From: Henriciella sp. AS95
GTDB lineage: Bacteria > Pseudomonadota > Alphaproteobacteria > Caulobacterales > Hyphomonadaceae
DNA length: 64,000 bases
Direction of reading: 5' to 3'
Assembly: GCF_038900055.1 (NCBI RefSeq)
Contig: NZ_JBBMQM010000001.1
Location: forward strand, 372,001-436,000
The notes below the pieces were generated by a model. It saw only the letters and a program-made list of their open reading frames with translations. It was not told the DNA's origin and ran no database searches. Numbering within the stretch: position 1 is the first letter of the stretch; the number at the start of each line of letters is the position of its first letter. Shown piece by piece: positions 1-2,012 of this stretch. A program made the translations under genes and the position numbers.

Positions 1-827
1 ACGAAAGTCGGTACGGCAGCCGTATCAAGTCCGACGGCGTTTACACCCGTCTCTCGTGCATATGCCGGAAGCATCGCTGCGGCGCCGCGCGGAAATCCGA
101 TGATCGGTACTTTCACACCTAGCTCATGCAGACGCGAAACGAGCTTTCGATTGGGAATGATCACAATCTGTTCGAACACATCATTGGGCAGCCCTTCGGC
201 CCATGATTCAAACATCATGAGGGCTTTGGCGCCTGCTTCCACCTGGGCCTGCATGTAAAGCGCTGTCGCCTCGACGATATCATCGAGCAGCAGATCGAGT
301 TCAGCAGGATACTGATGGGCCCAGATCCGGGCCGTTGATTTGTCCGTCCCGCCGCGTCCTTCGATGGCATACAGCGCAACGGTCCAAGGTGCACCGGCAA
401 AGCCGATAAGCGTTTTCGACGGATCGAGCTTTGAAGTCACTCGTGAAACCGTTTCATAGACCGGCGAAAGACGTTCGGCCGCTTTTACCGGCGGAACCGT
501 ATTCAGTCTCTGACCCGGCTCAACGGTTTCCACGATCGGTCCAACACCTTTCTCGAACCGAACACCCTGTCCGAGCGCGTCGAGGATGAGAAGGATATCT
601 GCAAACAGGATCGCCCCATCCATATCATATCGCTGGATCGGTTGGAGCGTGGCCTCTGTGGCAAGTGAAGGCGTGTAGCAGAAATCGAGAAAGTCTTTCG
701 CTCGTCCGCGAAGCTCAAGATATTCCGGAAGGTGGCGACCTGCCTGTCTCATCATCCAGATGGGAACAGGATCCTGCCGATTGCCATTGAGGACAGACAG
801 AAGTGGTTTTTGTGCCTCTTTGGCCAT
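1..827 (-). CDS. hemE: Uroporphyrinogen decarboxylase, 3' end cut by window edge
   Basis: Converts uroporphyrinogen III to coproporphyrinogen III in cytosolic heme synthesis. About 275 N-terminal residues of the usual roughly 340 are present; the C-terminus lies left of base 1. Visible hallmarks are PIWMMRQAGRHLPEY near residue 23, the family's substrate-binding RQAGR loop, followed by DGAILFADIL and GFAGAPWT. The ATG at 827 has an AAAAGGA ribosome site just upstream on the minus strand. It is transcribed away from the gene-free stretch on its right. HemE is the classical left neighbour of the Caulobacter and Rickettsia replication origins. Confidence 0.96.
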   Translation of the reverse strand, partial: MAKEAQKPLLSVLNGNRQDPVPIWMMRQAGRHLPEYLELRGRAKDFLDFCYTPSLATEATLQPIQRYDMDGAILFADILLILDALGQGVRFEKGVGPIVETVEPGQRLNTVPPVKAAERLSPVYETVSRVTSKLDPSKTLIGFAGAPWTVALYAIEGRGGTDKSTARIWAHQYPAELDLLLDDIVEATALYMQAQVEAGAKALMMFESWAEGLPNDVFEQIVIIPNRKLVSRLHELGVKVPIIGFPRGAAAMLPAYARETGVNAVGLDTAAVPTF

Positions 828-955
828 CTTGGTCCTTTTTGAATCATCCATTGAATGAGCTCTTATCATTACTAAGCGGCGGATATGGTGGACAAACCGT
901 CTCATGGCGAGTTGTCAGCAGCATTTCCACAGCCAATCCCCAGAACATCCCGATT

Positions 956-970
956 TTAACGTTTTGTTAG
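956..970. promoter_or_regulatory. Near-consensus CtrA box
   Basis: TTAACGTTTTGTTAG is TTAA-N7-TTAG, one base off the consensus, 31 bp before the perfect box (start to start). Caulobacter Cori also carries several CtrA sites of differing quality. Binding is inferred. Confidence 0.45.
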
Positions 971-986
971 GACTTTGGATTCGTGG

Positions 987-1001
987 TTAATTTTCTATTA
1001 A
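987..1001. promoter_or_regulatory. Perfect CtrA box in the putative origin
   Basis: TTAATTTTCTATTAA, followed by C, matches TTAA-N7-TTAAC exactly. In Caulobacter, phosphorylated CtrA binds such boxes in Cori and blocks replication initiation in swarmer cells. Here it sits in the AT-rich core of the hemE-ppsR gap. It could also control transcription of either flanking gene. Confidence 0.75.
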
Positions 1002-1181
1002 CCATACTGGCGCCGGCGCGGATTGGAACAGACGGGGATTCTGGCCTGCGGGAATCTTCCGGATGTGGATTTCTGGTGCATGGATGGGGACAAACTCTTC
1101 TGTCCACAATCTCTCCACAGGGGTTGTCCATTTCTGCGAGACGCTGCACTTTCCGCAGCAGTCTAGCGAGCCGGGGACAGA

Positions 1182-2012
1182 ATGCGTCCAAGCATCTACT
1201 TCAATGTGCATCTCGTATCCGATTCCACGGGCGAGACCTTGAACGCCGTCATGCGGGCAGCCGCTGCGCAGTTTGAGAATGTAATCCCTCTCGAGCATAA
1301 TTACTATCTGGTGCGGTCTGAACGCCAGCTGGAACGGGTGATGCGCGATATCGAAGCGGCACCTGGAATTGTGTGGTTCACGATTTCAGACGAGGTCCTC
1401 CGCATCAAGCTGGAGCAGTTTTGCCGGCAACACCAGATCCCGGTCCTGGCTGTGCTGGATGCCTCAATCCACCTGCTCAGCCGGCATCTTGGTATTTCGG
1501 CGACAGAACGGGTTGCCGGCCAACATGCCCTTAACGCCGAATATTTCGAGCGGATTGAGGCGATCAATTACGCGCTCGCCCATGATGATGGCCAGAATCT
1601 GCAAGGCTTGCCCAATGCTGATGTCATCCTGCTGGGCGTCAGCCGAACTTCGAAAACGCCAACCTGCGTCTACCTTGCCAATCGGGGCGTTAAGGCCGGG
1701 AACATTCCCCTGGTGCCGGGCGTGCCCGTGCCAGCAATTCTTGACGAGATCGACCCGGAAACCGGGCCGCTGGTGATCGGCCTGAAGATTGGCGTTGAGC
1801 GGCTGGTTCAGATCCGCAGCCAGCGCCTGATGGCACTGAATGAAAACTCAGAGACCGATTACACCGATGAAGAGGCTGTGCGATCGGAAGTCACCGACGC
1901 TAACCGATTGTTCCAACGCAAGAAATGGACGATGATTGATGTGTCGCGCCGGAGTGTTGAAGAAACGGCGGCGGCGATTCTAAACAAATTGAATGAGCGG
2001 CGCGGCCAGTGA
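1182..2012 (+). CDS. ppsR: Pyruvate,phosphate dikinase / PEP synthase regulatory protein (DUF299)
   Basis: Bifunctional ADP-dependent kinase and Pi-dependent pyrophosphorylase family that switches PPDK or PEP synthase on and off by threonine phosphorylation. The 276-aa length is normal. The N-terminal HLVSDSTGETL and the central P-loop-like GVSRTSKTP are family signatures. The ATG follows GGGGACAG. It is the first gene right of the putative origin and overlaps maf by 4 bp (GTGA), so the five following genes probably form one translationally coupled operon. Which dikinase it regulates cannot be told from this window. Confidence 0.93.
   Translation: MRPSIYFNVHLVSDSTGETLNAVMRAAAAQFENVIPLEHNYYLVRSERQLERVMRDIEAAPGIVWFTISDEVLRIKLEQFCRQHQIPVLAVLDASIHLLSRHLGISATERVAGQHALNAEYFERIEAINYALAHDDGQNLQGLPNADVILLGVSRTSKTPTCVYLANRGVKAGNIPLVPGVPVPAILDEIDPETGPLVIGLKIGVERLVQIRSQRLMALNENSETDYTDEEAVRSEVTDANRLFQRKKWTMIDVSRRSVEETAAAILNKLNERRGQ

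Follow-up and report, generated by a model that had tools for sequence, protein, structure and literature searches.

The hemE–ppsR intergenic gap as the probable chromosomal replication origin of Henriciella

Introduction

In Hyphomonas neptunium, the replication origin has been mapped near hemE by marker frequency, with two parS sites and with parAB about 7 kb from hemE; the authors describe skew, dnaA position and DnaA boxes as giving no clear origin (PMC6650430). ChIP-seq in the same organism is reported to place bound CtrA next to ori (PMC7200025), and the Caulobacter G-box is reported to carry a T-to-G change (PMC4468827). Since the H. neptunium origin already lies near hemE, the Henriciella origin that we describe here belongs to a known kind. 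No description of a Henriciella origin was found in the open-licence literature, and the detail of the origin given below, together with two leads, a DnaA-box cluster within hisD and a variant origin box in genus g4, look newer.

The DNA analysed, hereafter the window, is a 64,000-nucleotide stretch (C1:372001–436000) of the 3,785,351-bp main contig, C1, of a 3.87 Mb genome in six contigs. The host is a marine Henriciella, family Hyphomonadaceae, as shown by a PpsR that shares 98% identity with the Henriciella pelagia protein. We conclude that the 354-bp gap between hemE and ppsR (828..1181) is very probably a hemE–ppsR-type origin, bidirectional and the only one on the main chromosome.

Results

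The gap and its conservation in the family

The window opens with the first 275 codons of hemE (1..827, minus strand), which continues past the window edge and was recognised from its translation and by tblastn to relatives. On the other side of the gap, ppsR (1182..2012, plus strand; NF003742, PF03618) encodes a COG1806-DUF299 protein (Kinase-PPPase). The hemE start at 827 and the ppsR start at 1182 make the limits of the gap exact. The order hemE / ppsR-maf-aroE-coaE-dnaQ, on which the first-pass annotation had remarked, is seen in the window, with secB and Tim44 following downstream. Mechanical open reading frames of 74–103 aa overlap the gap; two of them, checked in 27 genus loci (own included), are open in 4/27 and 1/27, and being so rarely open they do not look like genes, which agrees with the earlier description of a gene-free 354-bp gap. 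The claimed AT-rich core is likewise present: GC content is 0.50 in the gap versus 0.60 in the window (AT 50% versus 40%), and the most AT-rich 40-mers of the gap (72.5%) begin at 962 and 836.

We found ppsR in 103 of 105 family genomes, and hemE adjoins it in 68/69 fetched loci besides our own, the remaining one being cut by the contig start. Fetched and named loci together gave 93 gaps, 71 of them distinct and 69 of these 344–411 bp long, the length tally leaving out L107, in which hemE was not detected, and L146, which the contig start truncates. Counts over 68 distinct gaps further leave out L051, L108 and L109 (gaps of 766 and 700 bp; unclassified proteobacterium), and the genus alignment comprises 27 of the 29 distinct genus gaps, own included, without L106 and L142 (g1). 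In this alignment, 63 of the 98 columns within the elements described below are at least 90% identical versus 31 of the 256 other columns, a count that is descriptive rather than a blind test because the element list was made after viewing the alignment.

DnaA boxes and a predicted unwinding module

Taking TTATCCACA as the strict DnaA box and allowing up to 2 mismatches for a DnaA-like match, we found 8 matches in the gap, where shuffled gaps average 0.97 and 0/1000 reach 8. Four exact TCCACA cores are also present, a number that none of the 1000 shuffles attains. The strict TTATCCACA itself does not occur within 828–1181, as had been claimed. Two of the eight matches, at 982–990 and 998–1006, overlap the second CtrA box (see below), so six remain; the six boxes originally proposed thus hold as a number, with the qualification that one of them, at 1085–1093, is unconserved in the genus.

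The six differ in how well they are kept, a conserved column being one with at least 90% identity over the 27 genus gaps. TTGTCCACC (887..895, minus strand), the box of the unwinding module predicted below, has 7/9 such columns, followed by ATTTCCACA (923..931, plus strand) with 5/9 and AAATCCACA (1064..1072, minus strand) with 4/9. At CTGTCCACA (1100..1108, plus strand) the aligned sequence is the strict TTATCCACA in 5/27 genus gaps, and its neighbour CTCTCCACA (1111..1119, plus strand) keeps the TCCACA core in 27/27. The match TTGTCCCCA (1085..1093, minus strand) has 1/9 conserved columns and a mean identity of 0.58, equal to that of the rest of the gap, and is probably a chance occurrence. 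Two further plus-strand words are conserved, TGGAACA at 1024..1030 (5/7 columns) and TTGTC(C/G)A at 1124..1132 (7/9 columns), the latter possibly a weak DnaA site or the ppsR -35.

Within the 1.036 Mb of the chromosome that were sampled, the gap ranks highest in TCCACA cores (4; next place 3) and shares the top count of DnaA-like matches (8) with one place inside hisD. Nowhere else in this sample are at least 7 DnaA-like boxes accompanied by a CtrA box; a scanned interval at 805.7 kb has five DnaA-like boxes and one CtrA box.

On the hemE side of the gap, we re-coded the published rule for the basal origin unwinding system (BUS) as a DnaA box with at most 2 mismatches, a spacer of 0–16 bp and at least three NAN trios (PMC8287927). 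The rule gives one match, comprised of the box GGTGGACAA (the reverse of TTGTCCACC, two mismatches), a GC-rich 11-bp spacer (876..886, plus strand) and four DnaA-trios, TAT-CAT-TAC-TAA (864..875, plus strand), where strand opening is predicted to start. Ten of the 12 trio columns are at least 90% identical over the 27 gaps. Shuffles of the gap yield a box with at least four trios in 40/1000 cases and with at least three in 161/1000. Without the alignment, then, the case for the module is weak, and its support comes from relatives. A laxer scan (box up to four mismatches, spacer 10–13) recovers four trios at the hemE side in 46/68 distinct family gaps and 27/29 in the genus; the genus box has at most 2 mismatches in 24/29 gaps, and the spacer is 11 bp in all 27 genus gaps with a module match. 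The scan did not find the module in 22/68 family gaps, including 17/17 of genera g3, g5, g7, g8 and g10. The orientation of the trios rests on the layout of E. coli oriC and on the 3'-GAT-5' wording in PMC8287927; after the orientation check, a reading of the hemE-side tract as minus-strand trios (TAG-TAA-TGA-TAA) was dropped as lying on the wrong strand.

Candidate CtrA and CcrM sites

The first-pass annotation contained neither CtrA boxes nor DnaA-trios. Two CtrA boxes lie in the middle of the gap: TTAACGTTTTGTTAG (956..970), with one mismatch to TTAA-N7-TTAA, and TTAATTTTCTATTAA (987..1001), a perfect match followed directly by a C, as in the reported H. neptunium ChIP motif (PMC7200025). 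They are spaced 31 bp apart, both are overlapped by the most AT-rich 40 bp (962..1001; 72.5%), and they are retained with at most 1 mismatch in 27/27 and 25/27 genus gaps, respectively. Two boxes at this threshold are reached by 5/1000 shuffles, and of the 13 places in the genome that have the perfect word one is in the gap, the reversed control word being present at 22. Across the family, 64/68 distinct gaps hold at least one CtrA box (at most 1 mismatch) and 54/68 two or more, in agreement with the CtrA placement reported from H. neptunium ChIP-seq (PMC7200025). Genus g3 has 0.91 boxes per gap versus 0.7 in shuffles, which come so close because g3 gaps are AT-rich. In the g7 gaps (L125, L126, L137–L139), the CtrA box is found at position 57–59 and not mid-gap; these gaps also have no unwinding module by the rule, a sign that the origin layout has turned over within the family.

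Neither form of the IHF consensus (WATCARNNNNTTR or WATCAN5WTR) has a match in the gap; an IHF site is a criterion in PMC1914354 and is treated here as common rather than defining. Four GANTC (CcrM) sites are present, one at 841..845 and others beginning at 978, 1037 and 1052, a count reached by 88/1000 shuffles and therefore without significance when this gap is taken by itself, although gaps of the genus average 5.2 sites versus 1.7 in shuffles. A control set of 57 ORF-free gaps, from which the origin gap was left out because chance ORFs of at least 80 aa cover part of it, has 0.90 GANTC and 0.17 TCCACA per 354 bp.

Chromosome-scale signals

GC skew was sampled in 53 pieces covering 27% of the contig, with the arms split on the assumption that the origin is at the gap. 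To the right of the gap, from 372 kb to 2.22 Mb, 24/26 sampled pieces have positive skew, whereas 23/27 on the other arm are negative, and a second sign change falls between 2.2 and 2.4 Mb, where the antipode of the gap is at ~2.27 Mb. Exceptions occur at 0.70, 1.00, 3.60, 3.70, 0.10 and 0.33 Mb, of which the wrong-sign skew around 0.70, 3.60 and 3.70 Mb perhaps marks recent inversions or insertions. When skew is summed without breaks from 220 to 496 kb, it is lowest at C1 336.8 kb, which lies 36 kb to the left of the gap, though the valley there is flat (-2486 at 336.8 kb versus -2358 at 372 kb). The prediction that the minimum would fall near base 1000 of the window thus fails as a strict test, with the minimum 36 kb off, and fits as a broad one, the arms changing sign in this region.

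The exact parS palindrome GTTNCACGTGNAAC occurs at 3 places in the 3.87 Mb genome (C1 366552, 367082 and 371498), all 1.3–6.3 kb left of the gap, and the reversed-pattern control gives 0. On the same side, parB, parA, rsmG, mnmG, mnmE and rho are found at about 364.3–371.2 kb. The dnaA gene (C1:783913–785379) is ~411 kb from the gap, on the positive-skew arm; by coordinates, it is ~500 kb away in the g4 genomes G074 and G055.

A second DnaA-box cluster within hisD

The place that equals the gap in DnaA-like matches is a cluster that includes a strict TTATCCACA (C1:2600241–2600310; L062:241–310) inside hisD on the minus strand, ~1.56 Mb from the origin, or 82% of the way to the antipode. We found hisD in 29/29 genus genomes, and TCCACA cores at hisD positions 840 and 852, 12 bp apart, are present in 24/28 and 25/28 genus fragments, counted without L201 (partial) and L202 (paralogue). 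Within hisD 810–885, a stretch picked after the fact and compared over related genomes that inflate codon statistics, Ala/Ser codons end in T in 81/136 cases versus 301/1993 elsewhere in hisD, Val is GTG in 93/102 versus 303/865, and Leu is TTG in 32/62 versus 102/822. In g4 the core at 852 is found in 12/12 and that at 840 in 10/12, and the pair is also present in g6 (1/1) and absent in 9/9 from g3, g5, g7, g9 and g10; the phased cluster is thus kept in three genera (g1, g4 and g6), and codon choice within it favours the box. Our genome has five places with a pair of TCCACA no more than 25 bp apart, the origin and hisD among them, and the reversed control has 3.

Variant origin boxes in genus g4

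In the sister genus g4, which we infer to be Hyphomonas, the 16 distinct origin gaps (L050, L112–L121, L144, L145 and L147–L149; 5,676 bp) contain 66 copies of GANTCACA, 3 to 5 each, against 0.03 in shuffles and a background of 0.003 per 355 bp, the latter taken from 220 kb of five or six g4 genomes. This word is a DnaA-box-like sequence fused with the CcrM site GANTC. In the compared part of the family alignment, it stands at positions of the window's TCCACA boxes, as with GAGTCACAGG versus CTCTCCACAGG at 1111. In 6 genomes, of which three belong to g4, no same-strand pairs of GANTCACA lie 8–32 bp apart; the g4 boxes thus do not form close tandem repeats. The word is absent from the g4 hisD cluster in 12/12; as the hisD boxes keep TCCACA there, the change to GANTCACA is specific to the origin. 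We also considered a g4 DnaA with changed specificity, an explanation weakened by the same absence in 12/12. No description of GANTCACA at Hyphomonas origins was found in the available parts of the open-licence literature.

Discussion

The proposal of the first-pass annotation that this locus is the chromosomal origin is strengthened by every genome-level test that was run, as the broad skew switch, parS with parAB and the box cluster all point to the gap or its neighbourhood. It also agrees with hemE–ppsR adjacency across the family loci and with the reported marker-frequency peak near hemE in H. neptunium (PMC6650430). In the mechanism that we propose, DnaA would gather on weak TCCACA boxes, chiefly the right-hand pair at 1100–1119 and the box at 923, and the box at 887–895 would load DnaA over the 11-bp spacer onto the four trios at 864–875, where, on the hemE side, the strands would first part. 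Phosphorylated CtrA, bound to two boxes in the AT-rich middle whose 31-bp spacing is about three helical turns, may keep the origin from opening in cells of the non-replicating type, and ParB on the three nearby parS sites would move the copied origin to the pole. These candidate sites for opening, initiator binding and CtrA braking are defined at base level, which would allow each to be changed separately in Henriciella, a genus that can be cultured.

Several observations stand against the origin reading: the skew minimum is 36 kb off, the gap has no IHF consensus and no strict DnaA box, modules arise by chance in shuffles, the module was not found in 22/68 gaps, and dnaA lies ~411 kb away. 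If the gap were instead a divergent hemE/ppsR promoter under CtrA and DnaA, both of which are reported to act also as transcription factors in Caulobacter (PMC7200025, PMC4468827), the origin would lie nearby, for example near 337 kb, as the displaced skew minimum would allow, or at dnaA (784 kb). We regard this as extremely unlikely, given that the parS sites sit against the gap, that no sampled 354-bp stretch at 220–372 kb has 7 DnaA-like boxes, that dnaA is not only 411 kb distant but on the positive-skew arm, and that marker frequency in H. neptunium peaks near hemE (PMC6650430). A narrower alternative leaves the origin in place and reads the TTATCATTA(C/T)TAAG tract as the hemE promoter -10 on the minus strand, with opening in the AT-rich middle at 955–1001. 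The tract lies 37–50 bp ahead of the start of hemE, and, judged by eye, the minus strand has a fair promoter arrangement, with TTGTCC and TAATGA separated by 18 bp. The middle of the gap is equally AT-rich, and modules often arise in shuffles. In the second genus clade, however, the would-be -35 is TTTTCC and yet the box core TCCAC is kept, the spacer stays at 11 bp in 27/27 genus gaps with a match, and the four in-register middle adenines persist where their flanks vary (TAT-GAC-TAT-TAG, TAT-TAT-TAT-TAG), leaving this alternative unlikely, if with an appreciable chance of being right. The promoter and trio roles of the hemE-side tract could also coexist.

The annotation had also suggested that DnaA may act here on weak, G-box-like sites. 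The Caulobacter G-box has the sequence TGATCCACA, which is not among the 8 DnaA-like matches of the gap, and these matches deviate for the most part at other positions of the box. Strict boxes occur at 1100–1108 in relatives, as described above, and our DnaA retains the HTH motifs PRQ and DHTTV, with E. coli DnaA as the point of comparison. That all gap boxes are non-consensus, as is reported for Cori (PMC4468827), speaks for recognition of G-boxes, which we nonetheless consider very unlikely, and the suggestion is not supported.

Beyond the hemE–ppsR origin itself, the two leads bear on how DnaA may be controlled. In E. coli, datA and DARS are loci that titrate or reset DnaA. By analogy, the hisD cluster is possibly a datA/DARS-like locus, titrating or resetting DnaA; if so, it becomes testable whether alphaproteobacteria have such control loci. 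In g4, CcrM methylation of the GANTCACA boxes could have an effect at the origin alone, either licensing initiation or blocking it, and if so, one could test whether this methylation acts directly at an origin; caution is needed, as CcrM is reported to be dispensable for the control of initiation in Caulobacter crescentus (PMC3973325). We tentatively bring these together as a two-place DnaA system of Henriciella and Hyphomonas, with a hemE origin (module plus CtrA brake), a hisD control cluster and, in g4, origin-only licensing or block by CcrM, a working proposal that we think somewhat doubtful as a whole.

The likeness to the H. neptunium origin is close, as both lie near hemE within the same family, with parAB and parS nearby and a CtrA site at or next to ori, and in both dnaA is away from the origin, being off the marker-frequency peak there and ~411 kb distant here. 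They differ in that H. neptunium has two parS sites and Henriciella three, and in that the sequence-based evidence is clearer here; Hyphomonas, if it is g4, is also set apart by origin boxes of the GANTCACA kind. With C. crescentus Cori (PMC1914354, PMC4468827), Henriciella shares the hemE and COG1806 flanks, a gap of ~400 bp, weak DnaA sites, TTAA-N7-TTAA CtrA boxes and an AT-rich core. Cori differs in its G- and W-boxes, its IHF site and its CtrA sites, of which there are five (PMC1914354, PMC4468827); the Henriciella gap has two CtrA boxes, neither a G-box nor an IHF consensus was found in it, and three parS lie within 6.3 kb. Finally, the module predicted from sequence resembles the reported BUS of Bacillus subtilis and others, with a DnaA box, a spacer of 11 bp and four NAN trios oriented as expected (PMC8287927, PMC6669920), and differs from it in the two mismatches of its box and in having no adjacent dnaA.
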